This document shows, piece after piece, positions 13,434-41,450 of a stretch of DNA of 64,000 nucleotides; the first letter of the stretch is position 1; the number at the start of each line of letters is the position of its first letter. The position numbers and the translations under genes were made by a program. Below the pieces are notes generated by a model, which was given only the letters and a program-made list of their open reading frames with translations, ran no database searches and was not told the DNA's origin. The stretch lies in contig NZ_AP018795.1 of the NCBI RefSeq assembly GCF_003966655.1, forward strand, positions 930,001 to 994,000. The letters are read 5' to 3'. Source of the stretch: Acidithiobacillus ferridurans (GTDB lineage: Bacteria > Pseudomonadota > Gammaproteobacteria > Acidithiobacillales > Acidithiobacillaceae).

Positions 13434-13500
13434 AACCGTTCGAGGACTTGGCATAAACGCCGTCCATGCCCCAGAATCAAAACCAATGATGGAAAATCCC

Positions 13501-13692
13501 ATGAATCCATTGTTGGGTACATTGGCGGCTTATCCTTTTGCGCGACTGTGGCAATACCTGCCGGGAACATGGCCTCATGCTGGCAACCTGGGCAACGCGC
13601 CACGAGGCGGACTTAAGGAAGGAGTTCTCGCGCGAACGAAAGCCTCCGCGCAAAAGGGCGGCAGGCGCCCCCAAAAAAATAGAAGCTCGTGA
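13501..13692 (+). pseudogene. Possible remnant of an aminotransferase N-terminus (DapC-like)
   Basis: A frame from the ATG at 13501 begins MNPLLGTLAAYPFARLWQYL. This resembles the opening of succinyldiaminopimelate aminotransferases (MNP.L..L.PYPF.+L..L). The similarity stops within about 25 residues and the rest (GGLKEGVLARTKASAQKGGRR) looks like non-coding sequence. The stretch from 13434 to 13725 holds no other recognisable gene. This may be a second broken gene start, like the AstB remnant 700 bases upstream, or a chance frame. Composition shifts to GC-rich just beyond it. Confidence 0.3.
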
Positions 13693-13725: not shown

Positions 13726-15291
13726 ATGCATAACGCCAACAATGCTCTCCGTGTGCTCATGGAAATGCGCCCTGCCCTGGATGGCTTTTATGGTATCCCG
13801 CAGGAAACCCGCCTGCTTTATGGGGTGCTTTCCACCTTGCCGGATTTGGAACTATCCGGCCTGCTGCAGATGTCCAAACGCAGCGTGCGCGGCGGGGTGT
13901 ATGGCAGCGTGTCACTCTCCGAGGCGGAGCGGGTGCATCGCTTTGCGCGGGTGGTGGTATCCCTCAAGGGCCGCAGCGCGCTGGACTGGAAAGGCGATGT
14001 CGCCGAGTGGCTCGATCACTTCTGGCAGACCTGGCGCTTGCGCTGGGGTGCCTGGACCGGGCTGGGGAGGATTCCCTTAGGGCACTTTGAGACCCGGCAT
14101 TTCCGCGATTTTGTCTGGCAGGAGCTTTATGGCCGGAGCCTGCCCGCTGCTGACCGTGAACAGGTATTGCAAAGCGATTATCGGGTTTGTGCCTATCCGT
14201 GGCGGCGTATGCATCTGGTGGGTATTGAGCGGGCGCAGGTCTTGTCCCGTTCCCGCTATCCAGTGCTGGATACGCGGGGGCTGGATGTTTTTGTGGCGCA
14301 GACGCCTTTTCCCGGACGGGTGAGCGCGGGCACGGCGTTGGTGGTGCACTACCACGATGCCATCCCGGTGCTCATGCCCCATACCATCTCCGACCGCGCC
14401 TTTCATCAAAGCAGTCACTTTCAGGCCATGGCCGCCAACGTGCGCTCCGGCGGGCACTTCGTTTGCGTGTCCGATGCCACACGGCGCGATCTGCTGAGTC
14501 TCTTCCCCGAGGCGGAGGCGCGGGCCCACACCATCCACAATATGCTGCCCGCCCACTATTATCCCGCAGAGCCTGAGCCCGAACGGATTCCCGACATCGT
14601 CCGCCGTCATTTGCATGGCGAGTATGAGGGGAAGGTGGGGGGTACGGTGACGGGTAAGAGCAGAATCTATCCGCTGGCCCGCGTCTTCCATAACGAAGAG
14701 GAAAAAACCGCCTTTTATGCCCGCGCCCTGGGGCCGGGGACGCGCTTCGTGCTCATGGTCTCCACCATCGAGCCGCGCAAAAACCACGCCCGTCTGCTGG
14801 CCGCATGGGAAACCTTGCGCGGCATGCTGGATCCGGAGCTGAAGCTGATTCTGGTGGGGCATATCGGCTGGGATTACCAGACCGCGTTGGAGGGCTTCCT
14901 GCCGTGGATCGAGCAGGGTAACCTCTTCCTGCTTTATGGTATCCCCGCCGACGCCCTGCGCCTGCTCTACCGGCAGGCGGTGGTGACCGTCTGTCCCAGC
15001 GTGGGCGAAGGCTTTGATTTCTCCGGTGCGGAGGCCATGCGCTGCGGTGGTGTGGTGGCCGCCTCCGACATTCCGGTACATCGCGAGGTCTATGGCGAAG
15101 CGGCCCGGTACTTCGACCCTTACGACACCGCCAGCCTGGTAGAAACCCTGCGTCAGATCATCTACAGCCCCGACGCCAACGCCCTGCAAAGCCAACTCCG
15201 CGCCAGTGGCGCCGCCCAAAGCGCCCGCTACCTGCCCGAACGCATCCTGCCCCAGTGGGAAGCGTTTTTGCGGGGAGTGAAACAGGGATAG
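13726..15291 (+). CDS. Glycosyltransferase family 4 (GT-B fold)
   Basis: The 521-residue protein ends in a clear glycosyltransferase group 1 domain (about 330-510). FVLMVSTIEPRKNHARLL, then LILVGHIGWDY, and PSVGEGFDFSGAEAMRCGG carry the E-x7-E nucleotide-sugar site. The N-terminal half is a divergent GT-B acceptor domain. It should transfer a sugar from a nucleotide donor in the cytoplasm. It precedes the polyketide synthase gene on the same strand by 230 bases, and similar glycosyltransferases accompany capsule loci of this type. Donor and acceptor are unknown. No good ribosome site precedes the ATG at 13726, so a start at the nearby downstream Met codons (residues 12 or 14) is possible. Confidence 0.82.
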   Translation: MHNANNALRVLMEMRPALDGFYGIPQETRLLYGVLSTLPDLELSGLLQMSKRSVRGGVYGSVSLSEAERVHRFARVVVSLKGRSALDWKGDVAEWLDHFWQTWRLRWGAWTGLGRIPLGHFETRHFRDFVWQELYGRSLPAADREQVLQSDYRVCAYPWRRMHLVGIERAQVLSRSRYPVLDTRGLDVFVAQTPFPGRVSAGTALVVHYHDAIPVLMPHTISDRAFHQSSHFQAMAANVRSGGHFVCVSDATRRDLLSLFPEAEARAHTIHNMLPAHYYPAEPEPERIPDIVRRHLHGEYEGKVGGTVTGKSRIYPLARVFHNEEEKTAFYARALGPGTRFVLMVSTIEPRKNHARLLAAWETLRGMLDPELKLILVGHIGWDYQTALEGFLPWIEQGNLFLLYGIPADALRLLYRQAVVTVCPSVGEGFDFSGAEAMRCGGVVAASDIPVHREVYGEAARYFDPYDTASLVETLRQIIYSPDANALQSQLRASGAAQSARYLPERILPQWEAFLRGVKQG

Positions 15292-15389
15292 ACATCATAA
15301 TCCGCGTCTATTAGGCCGTTATGTGCAAATCACGCACTCCTGCCTATTTGCGGCGATTGTCGGGTGGGCGCCGCGGGCGTGGCGCTGAC

Positions 15390-15418
15390 TTGACCAGCGG
15401 TTTCCTGTATTCTTGATA
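15390..15418 (+). promoter_or_regulatory. Weak promoter candidate before the polyketide synthase gene
   Basis: TTGACC (15390-15395) and TTGATA (15413-15418) are 17 bases apart. The -35 element is good but the -10 is poor. It lies 104 bases before the PKS start, in the 230-base spacer that follows the glycosyltransferase gene. A regulator may be needed, or the cluster may be read from further upstream. Confidence 0.25.
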
Positions 15419-15432
15419 AACTGGTTGAATGG

Positions 15433-15525
15433 ATGAAGTTCCCGGGGCTGAGTCATGCAGATTGTGTACCCAATGGATGGACTGGCCATCTCTCTGAATT
15501 TGAAAACTTCGTGAACCGCCTATGA
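15433..15525 (+). CDS. Possible 30-codon small ORF coupled to the polyketide synthase start
   Basis: An ATG at 15433 opens a 30-codon frame (MKFPGLSHADCVPNG onward) that ends in TGA at 15523-15525, overlapping the PKS ATG at 15522 as ATGA. There is no good ribosome site for it and no family was recognised. If translated it would couple ribosomes onto the PKS message, whose own start also lacks a strong ribosome site. It could equally be chance. Confidence 0.25.
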   Translation: MKFPGLSHADCVPNGWTGHLSEFENFVNRL

Positions 15526-18500
15526 AAAACCAAAAAATTGCCGTCATCGGCTATGCCTCACGCTTGCCGCAAACGTCTGACGCCACTTTCTGGGAAGACT
15601 TGCTGGCGGGGCGGGATCTGGTGACGCAGGTGGCCGAGGACCGTTGGGCCACGGCGAATCTGGAGCATCCGCAGCGGAGCCATCCGGGAACTTCGGTGAC
15701 GTTCGCGGCGGGTTCGCTGGGGGATGTGGCGGGCTTCGATGCGGGGTTTTTTCGCATTTCGCCGCGCGAGGCGGCGGCCATGGATCCGCAGCAGCGCCTG
15801 TTGCTGGAGATGAGTTGGGAAGCCTTTGCCCATGCCGGAATCGCGCCTTCCTCTTTGCGCGGGAGTCGTTGCGGCGTCTTTATGGGTGTGGCGAGTACCG
15901 ACTACGCGTATAGGATGGCCGATGATCTGGCGGCTATCGGGTCCAACTCGGCTACGGGTTCGACGGCGAGTATCGCCGCCAACCGGTTGTCTTACTTTTA
16001 TGATCTGCGGGGGCCAAGTCTGGTGGTGGATACGGCCTGCTCGTCGGCGCTGGTAGCCTTTCATCAGGCCTGCCAGTCGCTGCTGCGCGGTGAGAGCGAG
16101 TTGGCGCTGAGCGGGGCCATCAGCCTGCATCTGCATCCTTATGGCTTTCTGATTTTTTCCAGGGCGTCCATGCTCTCGGCGAGCGGCCGCTGCCGACCCT
16201 TTGACGCTGCGGCCGATGGCTATGCGCGTGCGGAAGGCGGCGGGGTCTTCGTGCTCAAGGGCTATGATCAGGCCTTGCGCGATGGCGACCGGATCCTGGC
16301 GGTGGTGGCCCATACCGCCATCAACACCGATGGACACAAGGGTGGGCTGACGATTCCCAACGTCGAGGCCCAGGCCCAACTTTTGGAAGAGGCCTATGCC
16401 GCGACGGGTATCCACCCTGAGGCTATCGACTACGTGGAGGCCCATGGGACGGGAACCACGGTGGGCGATCCCATCGAGGTGGCGGCGATTGGACGGGCGT
16501 TGGGCCGCCATCGCCACCCCCGCTACCCACTGCCCATCGGTTCGGTAAAGAGCAACCTGGGCCACTTGGAGACTGCTTCCGGGGTACCCAGTCTGATCAA
16601 GGCCATTCACTGCCTGCAGAAACGCCAGGTGCCCGCCACCATCGGCGTGGAACGTCTCAACCCACGACTGGAATTGACGGAAAACCGCCTGGAGGTGGTG
16701 ACGGAGAACCTCGCCCTGAAAGGGGAGGGCCGGCTGGTGATCGGCGTGAATTCGTTCGGTTTTGGCGGCGCCAATGCCCATGTGATCCTCGAAAGCGCCG
16801 AGCCGGTACAGGCGGAAGAAGTCACTCCTGCGCCCGAATGCCCGCTGCCCTTGGTACTGACGGCAGCGACCCCTGTGGCACTCCAGCAGGTGGCGGGGGA
16901 TCTGGCCCGGGTTTTGGCGGCGCAACCGGAGACGTCCTGGTACGCCACGCTGTATCAGGCCAATTTTCGCCGGGACTGGCTGCGTCACCGGGCGATTTTT
17001 TGGCACGAGGGCCACGATGACCTTGTGGACCGCCTGGCTGCCTTTGCCGCGCATGACGACAAAAGTGTGGGAGTCGTCATGGACACCGCCCTGGCAGATC
17101 CCCGGGGCCCGGTTTTTGCGTACTCCGGAAACGGCTGTCAATGGTTCGGCATGGGTTGTTCGTTGCTGTCCGAGCCGATATTCCGACAAGCCATCGAAGA
17201 GATCGATGCCTTTTTCTTCCCTCTGGCGGGGTATCGTCTCGTCGATGAGTTGGCGGGGTCTTTGGGCGAGGATCGCTATGCCCTGACCGGTCATGCCCAG
17301 CCGGCCCTTTTTGCCCTGCAGGTCGGCATCACCCAAATGCTGCGCTCTTGGGAGGTGCGGCCGGTGGCGGTAACTGGTCATAGCGTGGGAGAAGTGGCGG
17401 CAGCTTGGGCCTGTGGCGCCTTGGACCTGGAGGATGCGGTTCAGGTGATCTTCCATCGCAGCCGTTTGCAGGAGCAGAGCCGGGGGCGGGGGCAGATGAC
17501 GGCGGTGGCGTTGGCGGCCGACGCGGCGCGGAAGCTGCTACGGGAATGGGATCTGGCGGAAGTATTGGACATTGCGGCTTGGAACAGCCCGCGCGGGGCT
17601 ACCGTCGTCGGTCCCACGGTGGCCTTGAGCGAGATGGAGGCCCGCCTGCGCGCGCAAGGGACGGCATGTAAGCGTCTGGACGTCGAGTATCCCTTTCATA
17701 GTCCCGTGATGGAAGATGTCCGGGAAGAACTTTTCGCCGCTTTGTGCGGATTGCGACCGGGCGAGGCCAATATTCCCTTCTACTCTTCGGTCAGTGGCGC
17801 TAGCCTGCCGGGGGAAGCCCTCGCTGCGGACTATTGGTGGGCCAACATCCGCGACCCCGTCCGTTTTCAACAGGCCACCGAACAGATACTGGCCGATGGC
17901 TTCAATGTCTTTGTAGAACTGGGAGGGCATCCAGTCCTGCGCGGTTATCTACAGGATGGCTTGACCCAGGGCGAACGGGAGGGGCGCATCATCGCCACGC
18001 TGCAGCGCGGTGATGATCATCCGCAACGAATTTTGGCGGCTGTCCAACAGGTATTCGTTACCGGGGTTCCGGTAGCATGGTCCCGTTTTTACCCGAAGCC
18101 TGGTCCTTTTGTGGACTTGCCTCATTATCCATGGGAGCGGGAACGCTACTGGCACCCGGTTACCGAAGAGTCTGCCGGGACGCTATATCGATACCCGGTG
18201 CATCCCCTCCTGGGGCATCCCGTGCCCCAGCATGAGCATGAGTGGGAGCAGGACATCGATACGGCCCGTTTGCCTTTTCTGGCCGATCATCGGGTTGGGG
18301 AGGGTGTGATTTTCCCTGGCGCGGGTTATGTGGAGCTGTTTCTTGCGGCGGCCCGTCAGCAGGGCGATGAAAGCGCGCTCCTGGTGCTGGAAGATCTGGA
18401 GATATGGGCGCCCCTATCGCTGAACGAGGAAAGTGGCAAGGTCCTGCGGGTGACGCTGGATGCGGCCAGTGGCGAGGTTCAGGCCCTCTCCCGCGACCGC

Positions 18501-21500
18501 CTCGCCCAGGACTGGACGCTGCACGCCAAGGCCCGCATCGTTGCGGAGCGGAAGGATCTGCGCCTGCGTCGGCCTGCCTTGGAGAGGCCCGAAGGCGCGC
18601 CGGACTTTGATGGAGAACAACACTATCGCGTCGCGGAATCCGTTGGACTTCTCTACGGGCCGAACTTCCGGACGGTGACCCAAGGCTGGGTCCGTGGTGA
18701 TGCGGTGTGGGCGGCGATGGCCTTGCCCTCGGGCATCGCGACCTCTGAGCTCGGCTTTCACCTGCATCCGGCGCTCCTGGACGGCGCTTTTCAGCTCTTT
18801 ATCGATCTCTTGCACGATAATATCGTCGACCACCCGGGGGTGGCGTTCGTTCCCATTCGCATGGGCAGGATCACGCTACGGCAACCGCTGACCCAAGTCG
18901 CCTGGGCCGGCGCGCGATTGCTCCGCCGTTCGCCCCATTCCATCCTGGCGGAATTTACCCTGATGGATGCCGCAGGGACGGTGGTCGCGCTGTGCGAAGG
19001 GGTGCGCATGCGGCAGGTGAAGTTGCTGCGTACTCCGGACGAGCCGTTGAGACTCATCGCCACGGAACTCGTGGCCATGCCGCGCCGGGAAGCGCTGCAA
19101 GGGGCCACCCCCCTGCCTGTCGCGGCGCTGGCGGAGGCATTGCAGGCGGCTCTGGGGAGGGGAGACGTTCAGCATGCCTTGGACCGCTATCGGGACGAAT
19201 ATGCACCCCTTCTGGACGCGCTGCTCCAGGCATTTCTGAGCGAGAGCGGGGGCGAGGCCGTAGCAGAGACCATGCCTGCCTTTGCGGACGAAGAGCCTAT
19301 TTCCGCCGGGCAGATTTGGATGACCTTGATTCGGGACTATCCGGAGTTTTCCGCCCTCACCCTACAGGTGGGGAGCGCGGGCTTGGCACTTGCCGCCTCT
19401 TCTGCGGACTATGGGGACCATGATCGCGCGGCTGCGCCGCGCCTGGATCCGGACCTTTTGGTCAGGACTATCCTGCAAACCGTCAATGACCCCATCCACG
19501 CGGCGGTCACCCGTTTTGCGCAGGAACGATGCGCCCAACTAGCCCCATCCTCCCGCTTGGGGATCATGGAGATCAACGCCCATGGACCTGACTGGATAGT
19601 GCAGGCGGCGGAGGCCCTTTCCCGGGAAAATTGCTGCGACCTGTACTACGCGAGTCCCGGAGCAGAGATTCTGGAGTCCCAGGCGGAGACGGCCCGCGAA
19701 GCCCAATGGCAATCCCTGACCATTCCCGCGGCAGGTACCTTACCCGCGCCAGACCCACGGCCCACCGTGCATTTCGCCTGGGTGCAGGTGGACGGGATGG
19801 ATGCGGATAGCGCCGCGCAAATGATCCATATGGCCCGGGACTGCCTTGCGCCTCAGGGGCTGCTGTTTTTGCTGGGCGTGCATCCTGAGCCCTGGATGAC
19901 GGCCCTGGCGGAGTGTCGGGATGCCGACGCCGGACAGTCTCTGACTGCAGCCCAACTGCAGGCGGATTTGCCGCAAATGGGCTTCGTGGACGCTCGATTA
20001 TTGGGTCCGGATAATGTGCTGCGCACGGGTCCCTACCTGCTTCTCGCCAGAAAAAGTGAGGACGCCCTTCCGACTGCCCAGCCCGAGCCGGGCGCCAAGG
20101 GCCGGTGGCTATTGGTGGGGGAAAAGGCGTGTGGCGATGACCACCAGTCCCCCTGGACGGCGGCGCTGGAATTGGAATTTGCGCAGCAAGGCTTCAAAAC
20201 GATCACTCTGGAGGCGGCGAACGTGCAGGAACTGGAGAATTCCCTGCGCGTCCTGTCCAGGGAAGAGGTGGATGCCTGGGAGGGTGTCCTGTATTTCCCC
20301 GGACTCTTTCCGGCCGCCGACGAGATGTCCATGAGCCGCTTGCTGGGGGAGCAATGCCAGAGTCTGCGCGCCCTCAGCCAGTGGGCCTTGGGCCAGGAGG
20401 AGCCACCCTCGGTGTGGGTGCTCACCCGCCATGGCCTATCGGCGCTGTATCCCTCCTCCCTGCCGCCCGCCATGACGGACGGGATGGCGCAACCCCTCCA
20501 TGGAGCGGGCCTCACCGGCTTTGCGCGGACACTGCAAAACGAGCTGCCGGAGCTTGCCCTGCGCGTGCTGGATCTGACCGAGAGCGAGCCCACCCCTCCA
20601 TTGCTGGAACATCTCGTGCGGGAGTGCGTCCGTCCCGATAGCGAGACGGAAATCGTTCTGGACGGACATGGGGGCAGGTACGTACCGCGAGTGCGGGAGA
20701 AACCGGCCCTGGAGATCACGGCCAGGGCGCCACGGCAACTGCGTTTTGCCGCGCCGGGGCAGTTACGCAATCTTCACTGGGCACGTTTTAACCCTCCGGA
20801 CCTGGCGGAAGACGACGTGGAGGTGCTGGTCAGCGCCACGGGCTTGAATTTTCGGGACGTGATGTACGCCTTGGGAATGCTGTCGGATGAAGCCTTGGAA
20901 AACGGCTTTTCGGGGCCGGGCCTGGGACTGGAATTCGCCGGGACGGTCAGTCGGGTGGGAAGCGGAGTCTACCATGTAGCGCCGGGCGATGAAGTGCTGG
21001 GCTTTGCTCCCGCCAGCTTCGCCACCCATGTAGTCACCAAGGGCTATGCGGTCACGCGGCGGCCGGAGCATCTGGGTGTGGAGGCTGCGGCCACGATGCC
21101 GACGGCCTTTCTCACCGCCTGGTATGCCTTGATGGAACTGGCTCGCTTGCAGCCGGGGGAGCGGGTCTTGATCCATGGCGGCGCGGGTGGTGTGGGTATC
21201 GCCGCCATTCAGATGGCCCAGTGGCGGGGCGCCGAGGTATACGCCACGGTGGGCTCGCCTGAGAAACGGGATTTTCTACGCCTCTTGGGGGTGCCCCATC
21301 TGTACCATTCCCGGTCTTACGACTTTGCCGAGGAGATCTGGCGAGACACGAACCAGGAAGGGGTAGACGTGGTGCTCAATAGTCTCTCTGGTGAGGCCAT
21401 TCGCCGCAATCTGCAGATATTGCGTCCCTTCGGGCGATTTCTGGAGCTGGGCAAACGCGACTTCTACGAAAACACGCCCATGGCTTTGCGCCCTTTCCGC

Positions 21501-22979
21501 AATAACCTCAGTTACTTCGGGATCGACGCGGATCAGTTGATGCAGCTACGCCCCACGCTGACCCAGGAAATGTTTGGCCAGGTCATGGGGCGCTTTGCCG
21601 CTGGGGATTTTTTTCCGCTGCCCTATACCTGCTTTCCGGCCCGCTCGGTCGTCTCGGCCTTCCGTTATATGCAGCAGGCACGCCAGATAGGCAAGATCGT
21701 GGTGACCATGGAGGAGCCCCCGCTCCCTGTGGTGAATAACATCCGCCTGCGTGGGGAACCGCTGCAGCTTGCCGCGGATGGGGTCTATCTGGTGACCGGG
21801 GGGCTTTCCGGTTTTGGTCTGGAAACGGCGCGACGCCTGGCGGAGCGCGGTGCCCGCAAGCTCGTGCTGATCTCGCGGTCCGGCCGGATGGATGGGCATG
21901 CCCGGGAGGCGATGGTCCTGATGCGCTCATGGGGCGTGGAGATCCTGGCGTTGCGCTGCGATGTCACCGATCGCACCCAGTTGGCGGATCTTTTTGCGCG
22001 TATCGCGCTGGAATTGGGTCCATTGCGGGGGGTCATCCATGCCGCGGCAGTCATCGACGATGCGCTGGCGCAGAACCTCAGCGAAGAACAAATCCAACGG
22101 GTCCTGGCCCCCAAGGTACAAGGCGCGCTCCATCTGCACCACCTCACCCAAACCCTATCCCTGGATTTTTTCGTGCTCTATTCTTCGGTGACGACGATTC
22201 TGGGGAATCCGGGGCAGGCCCATTACGTGGCCGCGAACACCTGGATGGAAGCCCTGGCGCAGCAGCGACGCGCCCAGGGTTTGCCGGCCACCGCCATATT
22301 ATGGGGCGCCATTGGCGATGTGGGGTTTTTGGCGCGCAACAAGAAGACCAAGGAGGCCCTGCAGCAACGTCTGGGCAGCGCCCCCATGTCGTCGCAGGCG
22401 GCACTGGATTGGCTTGAAGAGATCCTGGCCAGGGACGTGAGCGGCGATGCGGTGGTGGATTGGGATTGGCGGGCGATTCGCCGTTTTCTGCCCATCGCGC
22501 AGTCCCCCAGGTTCTCCCCGTGGAATCTGGCCATGGGCCATGGCGAGTCGACGGATTCCACCGACGAGGATCTGTGCGGATACCTGCTCTCTCTGCCGAA
22601 TGACGAGGCGGTCTCCGCCATCACCGATCTCCTCCGTCGGGAAGTCGCGGAGATTTTACGCCTGCCGATGGAAAAGATCGAAGCCACCCAGAGCCTGTCC
22701 CAAATCGGTCTGGACTCCCTTATGGGCGTGGAACTGGCCTTGGCTCTGGAACAGCGTCTGGGCGTCAAGCTTCCCTCTCTGCTGCTCGCCGAAGGACCAA
22801 CGCCGGCCAAACTCGCCGATCGCGTGCTTCAGGAGTTGCGCAAGAAACAAGGTCCAGGTGAATATCCGCAGGTTGCGGCGATAGACGAGGAAGAGCTGCG
22901 CCGACTGGCGGGCCTGCACGGCGTCGAGGCCCAGGCGCCAACCCTGGATGGATGGGTCATGAATGCGGAGGGGCGCTGA
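15522..22979 (+). CDS. Type I polyketide/fatty acid synthase, KS-AT-DH-(degenerate MT)-ER-KR-ACP (WcbR-like)
   Basis: This 2485-residue single-module synthase carries a full reducing set. The KS (1-425) has Cys173 in VDTACSS and the His motifs EAHGTGT and KSNLGH. The AT (about 530-840) has Ser621 in GHSVGE. The DH (about 895-1170) has His923 in ADHRVGEGVIFPG and Asp1087 in ALLDGAF. About 1230-1700 is a long, motif-poor stretch that looks like a decayed methyltransferase plus the structural half of a KR. The ER (about 1730-2050) has IHGGAGGVG, the KR (about 2085-2270) has VTGGLSGFG and Tyr2235, and the ACP (about 2365-2440) has Ser2399 in GLDSLMG. It lacks a thioesterase, so the fully reduced chain is probably released by the alpha-oxoamine synthase encoded next. 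Domain order fits the WcbR protein of Burkholderia capsule I. Confidence 0.93.
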   Translation: MKNQKIAVIGYASRLPQTSDATFWEDLLAGRDLVTQVAEDRWATANLEHPQRSHPGTSVTFAAGSLGDVAGFDAGFFRISPREAAAMDPQQRLLLEMSWEAFAHAGIAPSSLRGSRCGVFMGVASTDYAYRMADDLAAIGSNSATGSTASIAANRLSYFYDLRGPSLVVDTACSSALVAFHQACQSLLRGESELALSGAISLHLHPYGFLIFSRASMLSASGRCRPFDAAADGYARAEGGGVFVLKGYDQALRDGDRILAVVAHTAINTDGHKGGLTIPNVEAQAQLLEEAYAATGIHPEAIDYVEAHGTGTTVGDPIEVAAIGRALGRHRHPRYPLPIGSVKSNLGHLETASGVPSLIKAIHCLQKRQVPATIGVERLNPRLELTENRLEVVTENLALKGEGRLVIGVNSFGFGGANAHVILESAEPVQAEEVTPAPECPLPLVLTAATPVALQQVAGDLARVLAAQPETSWYATLYQANFRRDWLRHRAIFWHEGHDDLVDRLAAFAAHDDKSVGVVMDTALADPRGPVFAYSGNGCQWFGMGCSLLSEPIFRQAIEEIDAFFFPLAGYRLVDELAGSLGEDRYALTGHAQPALFALQVGITQMLRSWEVRPVAVTGHSVGEVAAAWACGALDLEDAVQVIFHRSRLQEQSRGRGQMTAVALAADAARKLLREWDLAEVLDIAAWNSPRGATVVGPTVALSEMEARLRAQGTACKRLDVEYPFHSPVMEDVREELFAALCGLRPGEANIPFYSSVSGASLPGEALAADYWWANIRDPVRFQQATEQILADGFNVFVELGGHPVLRGYLQDGLTQGEREGRIIATLQRGDDHPQRILAAVQQVFVTGVPVAWSRFYPKPGPFVDLPHYPWERERYWHPVTEESAGTLYRYPVHPLLGHPVPQHEHEWEQDIDTARLPFLADHRVGEGVIFPGAGYVELFLAAARQQGDESALLVLEDLEIWAPLSLNEESGKVLRVTLDAASGEVQALSRDRLAQDWTLHAKARIVAERKDLRLRRPALERPEGAPDFDGEQHYRVAESVGLLYGPNFRTVTQGWVRGDAVWAAMALPSGIATSELGFHLHPALLDGAFQLFIDLLHDNIVDHPGVAFVPIRMGRITLRQPLTQVAWAGARLLRRSPHSILAEFTLMDAAGTVVALCEGVRMRQVKLLRTPDEPLRLIATELVAMPRREALQGATPLPVAALAEALQAALGRGDVQHALDRYRDEYAPLLDALLQAFLSESGGEAVAETMPAFADEEPISAGQIWMTLIRDYPEFSALTLQVGSAGLALAASSADYGDHDRAAAPRLDPDLLVRTILQTVNDPIHAAVTRFAQERCAQLAPSSRLGIMEINAHGPDWIVQAAEALSRENCCDLYYASPGAEILESQAETAREAQWQSLTIPAAGTLPAPDPRPTVHFAWVQVDGMDADSAAQMIHMARDCLAPQGLLFLLGVHPEPWMTALAECRDADAGQSLTAAQLQADLPQMGFVDARLLGPDNVLRTGPYLLLARKSEDALPTAQPEPGAKGRWLLVGEKACGDDHQSPWTAALELEFAQQGFKTITLEAANVQELENSLRVLSREEVDAWEGVLYFPGLFPAADEMSMSRLLGEQCQSLRALSQWALGQEEPPSVWVLTRHGLSALYPSSLPPAMTDGMAQPLHGAGLTGFARTLQNELPELALRVLDLTESEPTPPLLEHLVRECVRPDSETEIVLDGHGGRYVPRVREKPALEITARAPRQLRFAAPGQLRNLHWARFNPPDLAEDDVEVLVSATGLNFRDVMYALGMLSDEALENGFSGPGLGLEFAGTVSRVGSGVYHVAPGDEVLGFAPASFATHVVTKGYAVTRRPEHLGVEAAATMPTAFLTAWYALMELARLQPGERVLIHGGAGGVGIAAIQMAQWRGAEVYATVGSPEKRDFLRLLGVPHLYHSRSYDFAEEIWRDTNQEGVDVVLNSLSGEAIRRNLQILRPFGRFLELGKRDFYENTPMALRPFRNNLSYFGIDADQLMQLRPTLTQEMFGQVMGRFAAGDFFPLPYTCFPARSVVSAFRYMQQARQIGKIVVTMEEPPLPVVNNIRLRGEPLQLAADGVYLVTGGLSGFGLETARRLAERGARKLVLISRSGRMDGHAREAMVLMRSWGVEILALRCDVTDRTQLADLFARIALELGPLRGVIHAAAVIDDALAQNLSEEQIQRVLAPKVQGALHLHHLTQTLSLDFFVLYSSVTTILGNPGQAHYVAANTWMEALAQQRRAQGLPATAILWGAIGDVGFLARNKKTKEALQQRLGSAPMSSQAALDWLEEILARDVSGDAVVDWDWRAIRRFLPIAQSPRFSPWNLAMGHGESTDSTDEDLCGYLLSLPNDEAVSAITDLLRREVAEILRLPMEKIEATQSLSQIGLDSLMGVELALALEQRLGVKLPSLLLAEGPTPAKLADRVLQELRKKQGPGEYPQVAAIDEEELRRLAGLHGVEAQAPTLDGWVMNAEGR

Positions 22980-22980
22980 G

Positions 22981-24306
22981 ATGGGTCAGGGGGCCAAGGG
23001 GTTGACGGCACAGATCAAGGATCGGCTGATCCAGAAAACGTTGGAGAGGCGCCTGACACAGTTGGAGCAAACGCCGGTACGTTCCGTCGTGGAGAGCGGT
23101 ATTCCGGAACGGTTTTACCGCTGGGATCTGCACCCGGGCTACCAGCAAGTGCGCCTGTTGCAGGAAGGCGCTGCGCGCTTCGGTGTAGAAAACCCGTTTT
23201 TCAAGATGCATGAGGGCACCGCTTCGGCCCACAGCCGGATAGCGGAAAAAACCGTGGTCAATTACGCCAGCTACAATTACCTGGGTCTGTCTGGGCATCC
23301 GGTGGTCAACGCCGCGGCTAAAGAGGCCATCGACCATTATGGAACTTCCGTTTCCGCGAGCCGCATCGTCTCTGGAGAGCGGCCCTTGCATACGCAGTTG
23401 GAGCGGGCCATTGCCCAGGCCTACGGCGTAGACGACGCCATTGTGATGGTGAGCGGGCATGCCACCAACGTCACCAGCATCGGTTATCTCTTTGGGCCGA
23501 ACGATCTCGTTCTTCATGATGAATATGCCCATAACAGCATCATCCAGGGCATCAGCCTGTCGGGTGCCAAGCGCCTGGGCTTTCCCCATAACGATCTGGA
23601 GGCCTTGGAGCAGATCCTGACGCAACAGCGGCGTCAGGCTGAACGCGTCCTGGTCGTTGTCGAGGGTATCTACAGCATGGATGGGGATTACCCCGACCTG
23701 CCCCGCTTTATCGAGATCAAGAATCGGCATCGGGCCTTGCTGATGGTCGACGAGGCACATTCCTTCGGCGTGTTGGGCCGCCACGGGATGGGGATCCGTG
23801 AGCACTTTCACCTGGATCCGAAGGACGTCGATATCTGGATGGGCACCCTCAGCAAGGCGCTGGCGGCCTGTGGCGGCTATATTGCGGGGGCATCCGCCCT
23901 CGTCGAAAACCTGCGTTATCTGGCCCCTGGATTTTTGTATAGCGTCGGTATGGCGCCACCCGTGGCGGCGGCCGCCTTGGCAGCCTTGCAGGTGCTCCAA
24001 GCGGAACCGCAAAGGGTGAGCACCTTGCAGCAGCGAGGCCGGTATTTTTTGGAGAAGGCACGCGACGTCGGCCTGCAAACAGGCGCCAGCACCGGCAACG
24101 CCATTGTACCAGTCATAACCGGCAGCTCCCTGCGTGCGGTGCGCCTTTCCAACTGGTTGCTGGAGCGGGGTATTCATGTGCAGCCCATCCTGTATCCAGC
24201 CGTCCCGGAACGGCAGGCCCGCCTGCGCTTTTTTCTGAGTTCCGAGCATACGCTGGAAGATATTGATGAGACGATGGCGGTTCTGGCCGAAGACCTGCGT
24301 GCCTGA
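22981..24306 (+). CDS. PLP-dependent alpha-oxoamine synthase (BioF/serine palmitoyltransferase-like, WcbT-like)
   Basis: The 441-residue aminotransferase class II protein belongs to the family that condenses an acyl thioester with an amino acid, with loss of CO2. Motifs are ASYNYLGLSGHP, GTSVSASRIVSGE, VDEAHSFGVLGRHGMG and the PLP lysine Lys292 in GTLSKALAACGGY. An extra 70-residue N-terminal segment, as in PKS-associated members, precedes the core. The ATG at 22981 has GGAGGGG seven bases upstream inside the PKS end. With no thioesterase on the PKS, this enzyme probably off-loads the ACP-bound chain as an alpha-amino ketone, much as serine palmitoyltransferase starts sphingolipids. The amino acid partner is unknown. 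Confidence 0.88.
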   Translation: MGQGAKGLTAQIKDRLIQKTLERRLTQLEQTPVRSVVESGIPERFYRWDLHPGYQQVRLLQEGAARFGVENPFFKMHEGTASAHSRIAEKTVVNYASYNYLGLSGHPVVNAAAKEAIDHYGTSVSASRIVSGERPLHTQLERAIAQAYGVDDAIVMVSGHATNVTSIGYLFGPNDLVLHDEYAHNSIIQGISLSGAKRLGFPHNDLEALEQILTQQRRQAERVLVVVEGIYSMDGDYPDLPRFIEIKNRHRALLMVDEAHSFGVLGRHGMGIREHFHLDPKDVDIWMGTLSKALAACGGYIAGASALVENLRYLAPGFLYSVGMAPPVAAAALAALQVLQAEPQRVSTLQQRGRYFLEKARDVGLQTGASTGNAIVPVITGSSLRAVRLSNWLLERGIHVQPILYPAVPERQARLRFFLSSEHTLEDIDETMAVLAEDLRA

Positions 24307-24374
24307 CCCGGTTGCCGGAGGAGAGGACCGCCGCTTTTTTGAAATGGCTCTGATAGCCCATGCAGGAGCAGCGC

Positions 24375-25418
24375 ATGAATAACCCGCAAGGCCCAGAAAT
24401 GCCGTCGATACTGTATGCGGTAGGGTTCTCGCCTTGGAAAAGGCGGAGCCTGCGGGCCTTTTTACCGGGAACCCGGCTCCACTTCATAGAACACGTCGAC
24501 AGCGCTCCTCCACACAGCAGTCTCTTGCTCTGGGGCAATAGCGATATAGGGGGGCAGGAAGAGCGCAAGGTCGTCCGGGTAGAGGACGGGTTTCTCCGCT
24601 CGGTGGGATTGGGGGCAGACCTGATTCCTCCGGTTTCCTATGTCTTTGACCATTCCGGGCTCTATTACGACCCCCGTCGCCCCTCGGATCTGGAGATTCT
24701 GCTGCAACATTTCGAAATGGATTCGGATCTTTTGGCGCGGGCGCAGTGGCTTCGCAAGCACATCGTGACCCAGGGTCTCACCAAATATAATGTTGGGGGT
24801 GTCACTTGGCGTCGACCGCCGCATGCGCGCCATGTCATCCTGGTACCGGGGCAGGTGGAGAGCGACGCGTCCATCCTTCTGGGCTGTGCTTCCATTCGCA
24901 CCAACATGCAACTCCTGCGGCAGGTGCGCGCGCAGCATCCCGACAGTTACCTGGTGTACAAACCCCACCCCGACGTGGTGGCGCGCTTGCGCCGCCCAGG
25001 CGCGGATGAGGAGGAGGCACCCGGTTATTGCGACGAAGTGGTGACGGATGTATCTATGCATGCGTTGCTGGAGGCAGTGGATGCCGTGCATGTGCTGACC
25101 TCTTCCACGGGCTTCGAAGCCCTTTTGCGTGCCAAGCCGGTGACTTGCCATGGGGTGCCTTTCTACAGTGGTTGGGGGTTGACCGATGACCGCATTTCCG
25201 TGGCGCGGCGTAGCCGCCGACGATCCCTGGATGAACTGGTGGCCGCCGTGCTGATATTATATCCACGCTACCTGCATCCCCTGACCAAAACCCTGTGCAA
25301 ACCCGAGGAGGCTATCGCAGGGTTGGGTGCGCTGCGGAGACGCGCCCGTGACCACCGCACCACCTTGTGGCGAAAAGGGTTTCGGATGGTCCTGCGCCAT
25401 GTCGTAGGGGTGAGATGA
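24375..25418 (+). CDS. KpsC-like beta-Kdo transferase, single module (WcbA-like)
   Basis: The 347-residue protein has the capsule polysaccharide biosynthesis (KpsC/LipA) pattern: VVRVEDGFLRSVGLGADL near residue 65, VLVPGQVESDAS, YLVYKPHPDVV, LTSSTGFEALL and FYSGWGLTDD. Enterobacterial KpsC is about twice as long, with two Kdo-transferase modules; here only one is present, so it may add a single kind of beta-Kdo linkage. The ATG at 24375 follows AGGAG at a good distance; an ATG 15 bases upstream is less likely. KpsC and KpsS build the poly-Kdo linker on a lipid acceptor in group 2 capsules. The stop overlaps the kpsS-like start (ATGA). Confidence 0.82.
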   Translation: MNNPQGPEMPSILYAVGFSPWKRRSLRAFLPGTRLHFIEHVDSAPPHSSLLLWGNSDIGGQEERKVVRVEDGFLRSVGLGADLIPPVSYVFDHSGLYYDPRRPSDLEILLQHFEMDSDLLARAQWLRKHIVTQGLTKYNVGGVTWRRPPHARHVILVPGQVESDASILLGCASIRTNMQLLRQVRAQHPDSYLVYKPHPDVVARLRRPGADEEEAPGYCDEVVTDVSMHALLEAVDAVHVLTSSTGFEALLRAKPVTCHGVPFYSGWGLTDDRISVARRSRRRSLDELVAAVLILYPRYLHPLTKTLCKPEEAIAGLGALRRRARDHRTTLWRKGFRMVLRHVVGVR

Positions 25419-26725
25419 AAAATTTTCTCTTTCTGCAAGGCGTTGCCAGCCCCTTTTTCGCGCTACTCTCCGATCGCTTGCGCGCCCGTGGCCGGAACGT
25501 GTTCCGGATCAACTTCTGCACGGGAGATGTGGCCTATTGGTGGCCTCGACCAGCAGTAGCGTTTCGCGGCGAAGTGGATCGATTGGGGCCTTTTCTGAAC
25601 CGGTATCTCGAGGATCACCACATTACCGATATCGTTCTCTTCGGCGACCGCCGACCTATCCATCAAACCGCCCTCGCCCTTGCGCAGGAACGCGGCATCA
25701 CCGTCCATGTCTTCGAGGAGGGCTATCTACGCCCCTACTGGATCACCATGGAGCGGGGCGGGGTCAACAAGCACTCCCAGCTTCCCAAAGATCCCCACTG
25801 GTACCGCCAGGCGGTGGCGCAGGCGTCCATGGGCGCGGAGGGAAGGGAATTCCCCGGTAACTTTCGACTGCGCGCGATGCATGATGTTTTTTATCACGCG
25901 GGAGACCTCCTCAATCCCATTGCTTTTCGGGGTTATCGGCACCACGCGCCGGTGCATCCCATACGTGAATATTACTGGTATATCCGACGCTTCCCGCGCA
26001 TCAAAAAACGATTGAAGAAGGACCTGGTTGCGACTTATGACTTCGTTCGGCAAGGCAAACCCTATTTCCTGTTACCGCTCCAGCTCTATAGCGACAGCCA
26101 AATTACCTGTCATTCCAGCTTTTGCGATATGTATGAGTTTATCACCACGACATTGACCTCTTTTGCCTCCCATGGGGATCGGGATCTGCATTTGGTGGTA
26201 AAAAATCACCCCCTCGATCCCGGCATGCAGGCCTATGAGACATTCGTTGCGGAACTCGCCGCCAAGCTGGGTATCGCCCATCGCGTGCACTATTACGATT
26301 ACGGTGATCTGCTACTGCTGCTGGAGCACAGCGAGGGGGTCGTCACCATCAATAGCACGGTGGGTACCTGGGCCCTCAATTTAGGAAAGCCCGTATTGGC
26401 GCTGGCCGACCCCGTTTATCATCTGCCGGGTCTGACGAGTGAAATGCCCTTGGATCTGTTCTGGAATGCCCCTGACGCGCCAGATCCAGAGTTGTGGAGT
26501 GCTTTCAAGCGCGTGCTCATCCATACCACACAAATCAATGGCGGATTTTATTGCCGTGCCGGAATGGACCTGGCTCTGGATACTGCAGTAGATCGCCTGG
26601 AACTTGTTCAGTCCCCGCTAGAGGAACTTTTATGCCGCATCGACATCCCCAAAGCATCCTTATCACCGGCGCAACCAGCGCCATCGGCTCCGCCCTCGCC
26701 CTGGCCTACGCCACGCATGGTATAA
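25415..26725 (+). CDS. KpsS-like beta-Kdo transferase (capsule lipid linker, WcbO-like)
   Basis: The 436-residue protein matches the KpsS family: FLFLQGVASPFFALLSDRLR at the N-terminus, HVFEEGYLRPYWITMERGG near residue 105, LVVKNHPLDPGM near 265, and VVTINSTVGTWALNLGKPVL near 310. In known systems KpsS adds the first beta-Kdo to lyso-phosphatidylglycerol, and KpsC extends it. Its start overlaps the KpsC-like stop by four bases. Its 3' end overlaps the next gene (SDR) by 94 bases, an unusually long overlap that implies co-expression. The lipid acceptor here may instead be the product of the PKS and oxoamine synthase. Confidence 0.83.
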   Translation: MKNFLFLQGVASPFFALLSDRLRARGRNVFRINFCTGDVAYWWPRPAVAFRGEVDRLGPFLNRYLEDHHITDIVLFGDRRPIHQTALALAQERGITVHVFEEGYLRPYWITMERGGVNKHSQLPKDPHWYRQAVAQASMGAEGREFPGNFRLRAMHDVFYHAGDLLNPIAFRGYRHHAPVHPIREYYWYIRRFPRIKKRLKKDLVATYDFVRQGKPYFLLPLQLYSDSQITCHSSFCDMYEFITTTLTSFASHGDRDLHLVVKNHPLDPGMQAYETFVAELAAKLGIAHRVHYYDYGDLLLLLEHSEGVVTINSTVGTWALNLGKPVLALADPVYHLPGLTSEMPLDLFWNAPDAPDPELWSAFKRVLIHTTQINGGFYCRAGMDLALDTAVDRLELVQSPLEELLCRIDIPKASLSPAQPAPSAPPSPWPTPRMV

Positions 26726-27405
26726 CCCTTCATTTGCACGGCCGGAATACGCAAAAACTAGAAGCCGTTGCGAGCCAGTGCCGGGACCGTGGCGCCCGAG
26801 TCACGCAATGTTCCTTTGACATTCGCGATAGCGGCATCCTGAGGGACTGGGTGTCCGATAGCGGCATGACGGATCCGCTGGATGTGGTCATCTCCAATGC
26901 CGGCATGAATACCAATATTGGTCGCAACGGAGATGGCGAGCGCTGGGAGGACAGCGCGGCACTCATGGACATCAACCTGCGCGCCACGATGGTGTTGGTG
27001 GATGCCGCACTGCCGGCCATGCGCCAGAGGGGACGGGGGCAGATTGCCTTGTTGAGTTCTTTGGCGGGTTACTTTGGGTTGCCGGTCACGCCCAGTTATT
27101 GTGCATCGAAGGCGGCTATCAAGGCCTATGGAGAGGCACTACGGGGCTGGCTCGCCCCGCAGGGAGTGGCCGTGAATGTCATCATGCCCGGCTACGTGGA
27201 TTCCGCCATGTGTCGTGCCATGCCGGGGCCGAAACCCTTTTTGTGGACGCCGGAACGCGCCGCGCGTCTCATCAAGCGGCAGTTGGCCGCCAATCGGGGG
27301 CGCATCAGCTTTCCTTTTCCCCTGAACTTTGGCACGTGGTGGCTCGCCGTGCTCCCGGAAGCGATCTCTCAACGCATCGTCCGAGGGATGGGCTATCATG
27401 GATGA
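26632..27405 (+). CDS. Short-chain dehydrogenase/reductase (WcbP-like)
   Basis: The 257-residue classical SDR has the cofactor site GATSAIGSALALAYA at residues 12-26, NAG in VVISNAGMN, and the catalytic Ser/Tyr/Lys set in LLSSLAGYFGLP and SYCASKAAIKAY. The ATG at 26632 follows GAGGAAC inside the preceding gene. Given its place after an alpha-oxoamine synthase, the likely role is reduction of the 3-keto group of the amino ketone to an alcohol, as 3-ketosphinganine reductase does. That substrate is inferred from context. Its TGA overlaps the start of the next gene by eight bases. Confidence 0.85.
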   Translation: MPHRHPQSILITGATSAIGSALALAYATHGITLHLHGRNTQKLEAVASQCRDRGARVTQCSFDIRDSGILRDWVSDSGMTDPLDVVISNAGMNTNIGRNGDGERWEDSAALMDINLRATMVLVDAALPAMRQRGRGQIALLSSLAGYFGLPVTPSYCASKAAIKAYGEALRGWLAPQGVAVNVIMPGYVDSAMCRAMPGPKPFLWTPERAARLIKRQLAANRGRISFPFPLNFGTWWLAVLPEAISQRIVRGMGYHG

Positions 27406-28990
27406 GCGGCAGCTTTTATGGCTTGCTTTGCCCCTGCTCCTTGGCTACATACTGTCCTATGCCCTGGAGTGGATCCTCCGGCCTCGCATACGGGTTTTTT
27501 GGCGGCGTCCATTTTTTACCCATGTGCTGCAAGGGGGCATTTATTTGGCGCTCTATGGACTCATCCTGGCCATAGTGGAAAGGCCATGGTTCGCGCTGAC
27601 GATTACCACGGCCTTGCTTTTTCTGGTGGTTATGGTCAACAACGCCAAATACGAATCGTTGCGTGAACCCTTTACCTATCAGGACTTCGACTACTTTACC
27701 GATGCCATCCGGCACCCGCGTTTATACCTGCCCTTTCTGGGCCTTACCCGGGGCATCGCCGCAATCCTGGCCTTTGTCCTTGCGCTTTATGTTGGTTTTA
27801 CCTTTGAGCGCCCCCTGCCAGAAAGCTTGGGCTGGATGGATTTCGGGGAGTATGTGGGCGCAATTTTCCTGCTTGCGGCAATATTTATTTGGGGGGGAGG
27901 TCGGAGAAAGCAGGAGCTGAGCTATGACCCGATAGTGGACATGAATGCGCTTGGCTTCTATGGCAGCATCTGGTTCTATGCCAGGGAAGAGCACGGCCCC
28001 TGTCATATCGCCACCCCGTTCGCAGGTCTCCCGGTACCAGCCATCGATCCGCCCACGCTACCCAACATCGTTGTTGTGCAGAGTGAATCGTTCTTCCGTG
28101 CCGATCGTTTTTATGATCAGGTCCGCCAGAACCTTTTCCCAGAATTCACGCAGATCGAGCGGGAGGCCATTTGGGCAGGGAAGGTGCAGGTGCCCGCATG
28201 GGGCGCCAACACCGTGCGTACGGAGTTTGGTTTTCTGTCGGGATTGGCCGAATCCGATATTGGCGTTCACCGCTTTAACCCTTACCGAAAACTCGCCCTA
28301 CGCGGCTTTACGTCCCTGGCAAGCCATCTGCAAAATTTAGGTTATGAAACCATCTGCATTCATCCATACCCCGCAAGCTTCTATAACCGCCACAATATCT
28401 ATCCACAGATCGGATTCAGCCGATTTATCGATATTCGTGAGTTTTCACCTGGCGAGAAGGATGGCCAATATACAGGCGATATCGCCATCGCCAATAAAGT
28501 CCGGGATATCATTTCATCTGTAGTTGAAAAACCACTATTTATCTTTTGCATAACCATGGAGAATCACGGCCCCTTGCATCTGGAGTCGCCCCGTGAAGGT
28601 GATGCGGACTTGTTCTACGCCACGGGCATCCCCGATTCGTGCCGGGATCTCACGGTCTACATGCGCCATCTGATGAACGCCGACCATATGGCCGGGATGA
28701 TCCGGGATACCTTGGGCCGTGAACCGCGCGAAGGGATATTTGCCTGGTACGGCGATCATGTCCCCATCATGCCGTCTGTGTACCGGCAAATGGGCACCCC
28801 CGAAAGTCTCACCGATGGCTTCATCTGGCGCACGCAGTCCAGTGCGGATACCTATTCCAGGGCGCATTCTGCCCAGATCACCGCTATGGGGGTAGAGTGT
28901 TTGGGGGGTGAAATCATTCGTCTGTTACCTTCCGGGCGGGTGGCGGATCCGGAAATTCGGATATCAGCGACCTCCGCCGAGATTTCGTAG
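27398..28990 (+). CDS. LTA synthase family membrane phosphotransferase/sulfatase (WcbQ-like)
   Basis: The 530-residue protein has several N-terminal membrane helices (about residues 8-190, five likely). A sulfatase/phosphatase-fold domain follows from about 225: NIVVVQSESFF holds the first metal ligand, GANTVRTEFGFL holds the likely Thr nucleophile, and WYGDHVPIMP holds the last metal site. Relatives transfer phosphoglycerol, phosphoethanolamine or similar groups to periplasmic glycolipids and glycans. It is the last gene of the cluster and would modify the lipid or its Kdo linker outside the inner membrane. The donor and product are unknown. Its last 27 bases overlap the end of mutY on the other strand. 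Confidence 0.82.
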   Translation: MDERQLLWLALPLLLGYILSYALEWILRPRIRVFWRRPFFTHVLQGGIYLALYGLILAIVERPWFALTITTALLFLVVMVNNAKYESLREPFTYQDFDYFTDAIRHPRLYLPFLGLTRGIAAILAFVLALYVGFTFERPLPESLGWMDFGEYVGAIFLLAAIFIWGGGRRKQELSYDPIVDMNALGFYGSIWFYAREEHGPCHIATPFAGLPVPAIDPPTLPNIVVVQSESFFRADRFYDQVRQNLFPEFTQIEREAIWAGKVQVPAWGANTVRTEFGFLSGLAESDIGVHRFNPYRKLALRGFTSLASHLQNLGYETICIHPYPASFYNRHNIYPQIGFSRFIDIREFSPGEKDGQYTGDIAIANKVRDIISSVVEKPLFIFCITMENHGPLHLESPREGDADLFYATGIPDSCRDLTVYMRHLMNADHMAGMIRDTLGREPREGIFAWYGDHVPIMPSVYRQMGTPESLTDGFIWRTQSSADTYSRAHSAQITAMGVECLGGEIIRLLPSGRVADPEIRISATSAEIS

Positions 28991-39903: not shown

Positions 39904-40458
39904 TCAAGGCTCAGCTCCGGCAGATCTGGCGAGGATGGCTGGCCAATGCCCTTGCGCCTGCAGAATCAGTTCGCAGAGTTCGCGCACCGCGCCACGTCCA
40001 CCGCGCTGTGCGCTCTGCCAGTGTACCCGGCAACCGACCTCCGGGTGTGCGTCGGCCGGGGCCGTCGCCAGGCCGACGCGGGTGAGAATGGGCAGATCGA
40101 TCAGATCGTCCCCCATATAAGCCACTACGGCATCCTCCAGGCCAAGGGCGATTTTCAGTTCGGTGTAGGCCAGGTTTTTATCCGAACAGCCCTGGTAAAT
40201 CCGCTTGATGCCCAGATCATGAGCGCGGTAGGCGGCCGTCGGAGAGTAGCGTGCCGTTATGACGGCAACCTCGATGTGCCATTCCTGCAAGAGTTTGATG
40301 CCGTAGCCATCCCGCACATGAAAGGCCTTGCTTTCCCTGCCGTCGTCGTCAAAAAACAGGCGGCCGTCCGTCAATACGCCATCCACATCGAGCATCAGCA
40401 GACGGACCTGTGCGGCGCGTTGCAACAATGCTGCATCTGGCAATATGCAGGTGTTCAC
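39904..40458 (-). CDS. kdsC: 3-deoxy-manno-octulosonate-8-phosphatase KdsC
   Basis: The 184-residue HAD-family phosphatase has the nucleophile motif LMLDVDGVLTDG, the second motif VITARYS and the third motif YMGDDLIDLPIL. It removes phosphate from Kdo-8-P in Kdo synthesis. The GTG or ATG start overlaps the kdsD stop. Besides lipid A, Kdo made here would also feed the KpsC/KpsS-like enzymes encoded at 24375-26725. Confidence 0.95.
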   Translation of the reverse strand: MNTCILPDAALLQRAAQVRLLMLDVDGVLTDGRLFFDDDGRESKAFHVRDGYGIKLLQEWHIEVAVITARYSPTAAYRAHDLGIKRIYQGCSDKNLAYTELKIALGLEDAVVAYMGDDLIDLPILTRVGLATAPADAHPEVGCRVHWQSAQRGGRGAVRELCELILQAQGHWPAILARSAGAEP

Positions 40459-41441: not shown

Positions 41442-41450
41442 GAGCAATCG

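Follow-up and report, generated by a model that had tools for sequence, protein, structure and literature searches.

The window analysed here, a 64,000-nucleotide stretch of Acidithiobacillus ferridurans DNA, comprises bases 930001-994000 of a 2.92-Mb single-contig genome. At window 13726-28990 it holds seven plus-strand genes, colinear and open over their full length, which we examined as a candidate module for making the lipid anchor of a capsule. Their order is GT4 glycosyltransferase, polyketide synthase (PKS), alpha-oxoamine synthase (AONS), KpsC, KpsS, short-chain dehydrogenase/reductase (SDR) and an LtaS/GacH-like membrane enzyme (hereafter LTAS-like, for lipoteichoic acid synthase; Table 1), and Pfam supported both the place and the families that an initial annotation, made from the DNA letters, had given for all seven. 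From PKS through LTAS-like the reading frames overlap or lie 53 bp apart, and these genes thus probably form one operon. The leading GT4 is likely a polymer or linker sugar transferase outside the core anchor set; the glycosyltransferases ahead of PKS in the relatives G016, G010, G009 and G002 are only ~30% identical to it, with partial coverage. By AONS, the closest named loci are those of Acidithiobacillus (65-67% identity), and 16 further genomes of the genus were searched.

The initial annotation had read the PKS as a reducing PKS/fatty acid synthase (FAS) lacking a thioesterase. Indeed, its layout was found to be KS-AT-DH, ~600 aa without a Pfam match, and ER-KR-ACP, with no Pfam match to a thioesterase domain in the protein. 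Core motifs of KS (DTACSS, HGTGT, K.NLGH), AT (GHSVGE) and ACP (GLDSL) were present. AONS carries the motifs DEAHS and SKA, and has a KBL/AONS enzyme and serine palmitoyltransferases (SPTs) as its closest solved structures; BioF, KBL and SPT were its nearest NCBIfam models, each scoring below its curated cut-off. Its assignment as an SPT was rejected, with 308 bits for NF047600 (cut-off 640), 282 for NF047599 (500) and 211 for NF047603 (670). Pfam revealed neither an N-acyltransferase nor a CerR-like epimerase among the seven genes, no search of the remaining genome having been made; a 160-aa GNAT gene at window 12951-13433 is not tied to the operon. The LTAS-like protein comprises five predicted hydrophobic helices followed by a catalytic domain with SES, T and GDH motifs, whose residues we take to be the catalytic Thr and the metal ligands; judged by these predictions, it has the features of the LtaS/GacH family. 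It matched GacH (5u9z/5wcx, 2e-14), LtaP (4uop) and LtaS (4uoo), all of them enzymes of phosphoglycerol transfer or of lipoteichoic acid.

Addition of beta-linked 3-deoxy-D-manno-oct-2-ulosonic acid (Kdo), predicted from KpsC and KpsS in agreement with the initial annotation, has good support, from the protein family in the case of KpsC and from PF05159 in that of KpsS. Both proteins contain QxxxD. KpsS scored 269.5 bits with the NCBIfam KpsS model (cut-off 600) and had no match in the PDB, and the best solved match of KpsC was 6mgd (1.3e-70), with four other KpsC chains at 1e-38 to 1e-44. When compared with 43 KpsC open reading frames (ORFs) of 600-830 aa, the window KpsC was closer to the C half in all 43, six ORFs of other lengths having been excluded wholly. 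A tree of 89 modules, from which four of the 43 were excluded because they gave no N-half match, placed it among the C modules; of 11 single-module rows, L184 (a fragment from a survey locus) fell in the N clade and the rest in the C clade. Searching the genome for PF05159 at E<=0.001 returned only the two window genes and no second KpsC module. In KpsC, the product of KpsS is described as the substrate of the C-terminal beta-(2->7) module, after which the N-terminal beta-(2->4) module acts (PMC10148158). With a C-type KpsC alone and no PF05159 gene beyond these two, the simplest prediction is a linker of two Kdo residues, and the window KpsC would represent a new variant feature, an orphan C-terminal module of the beta-2,7 type. 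Besides the isomerase-like gene of Table 1, KdsB is encoded at another place in the same genome.

Table 1. Genes of the candidate anchor module and a Kdo-supply gene, in window coordinates
Feature	Position	Strand	Basis and remarks
GT4 glycosyltransferase, 521 aa	13726..15291	+	Pfam Glycos_transf_1 2e-17
Iterative reducing type I PKS/FAS, RkpA/WcbR type	15522..22979	+	Pfam domains; motifs; identity to L074
AONS, RkpG type	22963..24306	+	Aminotran_1_2; NCBIfam bioF/KBL/SPT below cut-off
Single-module KpsC, predicted beta-Kdo transferase resembling C-terminal beta-(2->7) modules, 352 aa	24360..25418	+	Capsule_synth PF05159; 6mgd
KpsS, predicted first beta-Kdo transferase	25415..26725	+	PF05159 3.4e-77; ORF opens at 25367, start set by eye
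SDR, RkpH-like, proposed ketone reductase	26632..27405	+	adh_short 6.9e-39; ORF from 26494, start set by eye
LtaS/GacH-like membrane enzyme, RkpI-like	27398..28990	+	Sulfatase 5.9e-29; ORF from 27329, start set by eye
SIS+CBS arabinose-5-phosphate isomerase-like (KdsD/KpsF)	40455..41447	-	General Kdo supply, outside the module

Exporter and polymer genes upstream of the module and in relatives

That the window holds no capsule exporter, as the initial annotation had remarked, is true of the window; an exporter is nevertheless encoded in the same genome, 29-49 kb upstream of the module. The genome search for export homologues that the annotation had suggested yielded KpsE, KpsM, a KpsT-like ATPase and OPX at 885-920 kb, together with ManC, several glycosyltransferases, GMD and methyltransferases. 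ManC lies at 49 kb and the KpsT-like gene at 29 kb from the module, and the last polymer-side GT4 ends this array 25 kb upstream of the first module gene. OPX (Poly_export) maps to genome 897 kb on the minus strand, KpsE-type matches to 899.6-900.7 kb and KpsM to 900.7-901.5 kb (ABC2_membrane; NF050053 2.6e-28, below cut-off). The ABC ATPase taken as KpsT (914.2-914.9 kb; Pfam ABC_tran) is 58% identical to the ATPase directly after KpsM in the near relative G006. Between the two capsule halves lie ~25 kb of other genes (peptide-transport, TonB etc.). A low-GC stretch of this splitter, covering genome ~919-930 kb together with window 1-13600 (peptide-transport, DUF3857, TonB/ExbBD, MarC), is kept in G006 at ~83-91%; GC is 45-51% from window 1 to ~13.6 kb and 57-65% from 14 kb onward.

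In three relatives, the halves are joined. G016 and G005 carry OPX-(glycosyltransferase)-PKS-AONS-KpsC-KpsS-SDR-LTAS-ManC-KpsE-KpsM in one line (OPX of G005 being placed via L006), and in G002 OPX, KpsE and KpsM stand beside PKS-AONS, with no match to KpsC, SDR or LTAS in the stretches read. In all three, KpsE/KpsM are within ~12 kb of AONS; in G010 and G009, KpsE and the anchor genes are on different contigs. G006 shows the same split as the present genome, keeps the seven genes at 93-98% and has a full-length KpsE of another allele, 65% identical in DNA. Across 17 genomes of the genus, KpsE was found in 11 of 11 with anchor AONS and KpsS, a count that takes in G000 (two frames) and G015 (broken) and in which the AONS of G001 and G003 are contig-end fragments, as compared to one of six without (Fisher p 0.001); ten other genus genomes gave a near full-length KpsE match.

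Three further features of these relatives were recorded. In G006, a decayed GT4 start lies beyond the insert (L207 15823-16211), a trace of a once-joined locus or of a duplication, and the polymer locus includes sulfotransferase-like and CysD/CysN-like genes, read by eye (L207 1203-6523), which hints at a sulfated capsule. In G002 (L103 9583-18000), KpsS is found by an epimerase and genes read by eye as hopanoid genes, and a FemAB-like acyltransferase adjoins AONS.

The exporter upstream, and its union with the anchor genes in one locus in G002, G005 and G016, argue for a capsule anchor module, the initial annotation's option of a capsule anchor with its other genes elsewhere, and not for a free acid-resistance lipid. 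That annotation had also reckoned with a capsule export locus that has anchor genes of its own: an export locus does exist, but no PF05159 gene at E<=0.001 accompanies it outside the window. As the genome has only these two PF05159 genes, the window genes are likely the anchor genes of that locus. We therefore consider it highly probable that the module is a capsule lipid-anchor set of the rkp-1/wcb type, serving a capsule exported by the ABC transporter-dependent (KpsMTE/OPX) route. A free Kdo glycolipid or novel acid-resistance lipid made without any capsule, as the initial annotation had alternatively offered, is very improbable. Such a product would suit a window devoid of exporter genes, the two-frame KpsE described below, and a survey genome, G340, that keeps SDR-LTAS-PKS-AONS with no KpsS in the stretches read; yet all 11 anchor-bearing members of the genus have a KpsE, two of these broken, and for this genome the exporter and polymer genes, adjoining the module in three relatives, led us to reject it.

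The state of the export locus itself weighs against present use of the module. In this genome, KpsE spans two frames, and an IS701 element cuts a glycosyltransferase gene in the capsule locus, so that the capsule is possibly not made at present and capsule export in this strain today is uncertain. The KpsE shift, located by eye, falls at a short C run and may hence stem from a sequencing error or from slipped-strand variation. Could the locus be decaying, with the capsule already switched off and the anchor genes left over? Beyond these two lesions, such a history would fit the identical inverted IS701 pair round KpsE-KpsM, the split by ~25 kb and the broken KpsE of G015. We nonetheless hold it to be unlikely, since the seven window genes are open over their full length, G006 keeps them alongside an intact KpsE, and the C run leaves room for an artefact or a reversible shift, another window gene being likewise in two frames. 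This latter gene (window 47094-48319, plus strand, after surA) is an ABC2_membrane gene whose two frames overlap, which may reflect a genuine frameshift or an indel in the assembly. The two IS701 copies (L067 13088-14410, minus, and 17837-19159, plus; genome 898-904 kb) bracket KpsE, KpsM and the cut GT4, and the segment between them could accordingly invert. Elsewhere in the genome, a second export-type locus at 706.9-711 kb (L070 6857-11282) comprises a KpsE/Wzz-like gene (66.7 bits), OPX and a GT2-like gene, and further ABC2_membrane matches lie at 796-798 and 1497 kb.

KpsS grouping and linkage to lipid genes across the phylum

An even draw of 398 genomes from the phylum allowed us to survey the co-occurrence of the module genes, a survey that the initial annotation had proposed. 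AONS was detected in 23 of the 398 genomes at E<=1e-95 and PF05159 in 59 at E<=1e-20; 15 of the 23 had both (hypergeometric p 1.3e-8). At E<=1e-120 for AONS, a line set after viewing the list, 14 of 17 also had PF05159 (p 2.8e-10). Neighbours were counted at the 57 survey loci with KpsS, L188 being excluded here and from the KpsS tree because it has none, and G083 being scored as AONS-negative because no PKS adjoins its AONS (L195). KpsS had an SDR no more than 4 kb away in 10 of 13 AONS-positive loci vs 1 of 44 AONS-negative ones, and an LTAS-like neighbour in 8 of 13 vs 3 of 44. OPX was a neighbour in 4 of 13 and 27 of 44, respectively; some AONS-positive loci are truncated by contig ends, so that neighbours are undercounted there. 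PKS adjoins AONS in all AONS-positive rows but G001, G003 and G015, where AONS is at or near a contig end.

In a tree of 79 KpsS rows, all 35 AONS-linked rows, with the window KpsS among them, fell into one group of 38 (support 95/84), and 41 of the 44 AONS-negative rows fell outside it. The AONS label changed twice on this tree, as compared to 26 times when shuffled, and a clade of the 35 AONS-linked rows alone was not rejected (p-AU 0.146, approximately unbiased test). Rows L012, L016, L021, L028, L074-L076 and those from Acidithiobacillus had been picked for AONS or kinship, the survey rows being the unbiased part; the 59 survey rows alone, 15 of them AONS-positive, likewise gave two changes. 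The group holds rows from more than one class. Its exact edge is blurred by long branches, and the sampling covers KpsS proteins other than that of E. coli. Three rows of the group are unlinked (G333, G319, G343), and in the survey these are precisely the AONS-negative loci in which KpsS has an LTAS-like neighbour. The KpsS group thus follows the lipid module, with which these exceptions have only the LTAS-like gene in common. This AONS-linked KpsS group is the main new result of the analysis. It is correlative, and suggests that these KpsS proteins act on a different lipid acceptor.

Some of the surveyed genomes speak against so close a link. In G319 and G343, the LTAS-like gene stands beside KpsS with no PKS-type AONS at E<=1e-95. 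Of the 11 AONS-like genes in the three unlinked genomes, the neighbours of eight were read by eye (G333 3/3, G319 3/4, G343 2/4): the contexts in G319 and G343 (5/8 read) resembled those of bioF and kbl, with one hemA-like in G319, and one AONS-like gene of G333 (L214) lies beside ACP, epimerase and ligase genes, as in a ceramide cluster. Eight of the 23 AONS genomes lack PF05159 at E<=1e-20, among them three at AONS E<=1e-120, namely G185 (only 71% complete), G028 and G340. G028 (L192) has AONS-PKS beside KpsM/KpsT/KpsE with no PF05159 at E<=0.01, while G340 has SDR-LTAS-PKS-LpxC-like-AONS (partly read by eye) and one partial PF05159 match (1.3e-17), with no KpsS in two stretches read (L189, L209).

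Some of these loci were of interest in themselves. G028 possibly makes an anchor that does without KpsS/KpsC-type Kdo transfer. An LpxC-like deacetylase gene lies between PKS and AONS both on a Paraburkholderia plasmid (L076 13040-13954, annotated) and in G340 (L189 8385-9380, by eye). Finally, the mobilizable Pseudomonas plasmid pL21564-1 from a meat isolate (L075) bears a full anchor module along with two KpsC-like genes, kdsA, kdsB and a KpsF-like gene.

A proposed anchor lipid and its alternatives

From the gene identities, their co-localisation in relatives, their co-occurrence and the module identity of KpsC, we infer a route of amino-ketone release, reduction, phosphoglycerol transfer and Kdo addition on glycerol. 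The PKS would build a mostly saturated chain on its own ACP, and AONS would condense it, with decarboxylation, to an amino acid and so free it as an amino ketone; Ser, Ala and Gly are candidates for this amino acid, of which serine would leave a primary hydroxyl. The SDR would turn the amino ketone into an amino alcohol, onto which the LtaS/GacH-like enzyme would move phosphoglycerol from phosphatidylglycerol (PG), the product being a one-chain lipid resembling lyso-PG. KpsS would then set the first beta-Kdo on the glycerol, and the C-type KpsC would add one beta-(2->7) Kdo and, lacking the beta-(2->4) module, stop there. On this Kdo linker, glycosyltransferases would extend the polymer, to be exported by KpsMT-KpsE-OPX. 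The exact lipid, a sphingoid phosphoglycerol, is quite possible, if not yet probable.

Several observations count against this chemistry. The DH motif of the window PKS, DHRVGEGVIFPG, lacks the usual fifth-place Gly (a first, different DH pattern had given no match in this protein), and the DH pattern gave no match in the PKS of Sinorhizobium meliloti locus L074; full reduction of the chain is therefore uncertain. Topology is a weak point, too: the active site of the LTAS-like enzyme is expected to be periplasmic and that of KpsS cytoplasmic, so that the proposed order requires lipid flipping. Alternatively, the lipid may be exported before the LTAS-like enzyme modifies it, or it may flip back. 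Moreover, the capsular polysaccharide (KPS) of S. meliloti 1021 is described as Kdo with a phospholipid anchor (PMC7902896), an anchor named also in the title of Fraysse's 2005 study, which fits phosphoglycerol and not plainly an amino alcohol.

This last description, and the attachment of E. coli group 2 capsules to (lyso-)PG (PMC10148158, PMC7694667), would equally suit an anchor that stays a PG-type phospholipid, with the PKS providing no more than an uncommon long-chain acyl group or a temporary carrier and the AONS product being minor or separate. We regard this as rather unlikely, although less so than decay of the locus: amino ketones released by AONS, as known from the family, cannot simply re-enter PG, and both AONS and SDR are found together with the PKS and with a distinct KpsS group. 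Returning to the sphingoid phosphoglycerol, the phospholipid anchor of S. meliloti 1021 may itself be of this PKS-made kind. In the abstract of Fraysse's 2005 study, the S. meliloti anchor reportedly has a hydroxy-octacosanoic chain; a C28 amino-diol is computed to differ from this chain by only 1.03 Da.

Taken more broadly, and held more loosely than the lipid structure, Gram-negative ABC capsules might have two chemically different anchors, namely lyso-PG and, in the rkp/wcb/Acidithiobacillus systems with their own KpsS clade, a sphingoid phosphoglycerol that is built by a PKS and mimics lyso-PG, with a two-Kdo linker in Acidithiobacillus. We found no paper in the open literature that defines the anchor lipid as sphingoid, and the relevant passages of the rkp/KPS literature make no mention of an amino alcohol bearing phosphoglycerol; there, the lipid of the rkpA-type synthase is called an unspecified carrier or anchor (PMC4881576, PMC3557214). 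According to a section of a review, capsules made with KpsS/KpsC share a PG anchor (PMC12220298), a statement that would need a second class if the anchor is a sphingoid phosphoglycerol. If the anchor is indeed sphingoid, the acceptor specificity of KpsS could be tested directly by pairing two lipids with two enzyme clades. For acid mine bacteria, the module would tie a lipid pathway to a capsule thought to keep protons out (PMC8886135).

Comparison with known capsule systems

In E. coli group 2 systems, KpsS/KpsC-type beta-Kdo transferases and KpsMTE export are shared with the locus described here, and we know of no PKS, AONS or LTAS-like partners there. Of the group 2 components, KpsM, OPX and a KpsT-like ATPase were found in this genome, together with KpsE in its two frames. 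Whereas E. coli KpsC has both modules (PMC10148158), the window KpsC is of the C type only. Its nearest solved relative, 6mgd, is the monofunctional beta-(2->7) module of the split KpsC of Thermosulfurimonas dismutans, which has both modules as separate proteins, in contrast to the C type alone (E<=0.001) in the present genome. Within Acidithiobacillia, kps genes have already been reported for several members, with kpsC absent in A. ferrianus (PMC8886135); the relevant passages of that paper do not mention PKS, AONS, SDR or LTAS-like genes, and its main text has no match to 'polyketide'.

A close parallel is rkp-1 of S. meliloti (L074, strain Ak57, from a 3.7-Mb record labelled pSymB), where PKS-AONS-SDR-LTAS-like-KpsS stand in one line, with tblastn identities of 35-41% for PKS, 52% for AONS, 27% for SDR, 26% for LTAS-like and 39% for KpsS. 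L074 carries no rkp names, rkpA-G-H-I-J being assigned from gene order and size. Its stretch has no KpsC match, whereas in Acidithiobacillus a single-module KpsC is present and the KpsC-KpsS pair precedes SDR. The initial annotation had matched the window genes to the Burkholderia capsule I locus, the one-to-one wcb gene names being its own. The match to the locus agrees with a description of the wcb and rkp clusters as orthologous, capsule export genes included (PMC3908369). On the Paraburkholderia plasmid (L076), the order is KpsS-SDR-LTAS-PKS-LpxC-like-AONS.

In passages of the rhizobial literature, rkp-1 is credited with making the lipid that carries or anchors KPS (PMC3557214, PMC4881576), and mutation of rkpA is reported to affect KPS (PMC5539429); loss of the surface capsule on mutation is reported for rhizobial relatives only (PMC4881576, PMC5539429). 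The KPS of S. meliloti 1021 is given as a homopolymer of beta-(2-7)-linked Kdo (PMC5539429). Features of rkp-1/wcb seen in the present genome are the PKS by AONS, SDR with an LtaS-like gene, KpsS/KpsC, and export genes with KpsE in two frames. Thus, the type of anchor module is already known from rkp-1/wcb, and what Acidithiobacillus and its comparison add are the KpsS grouping and the single-module KpsC.

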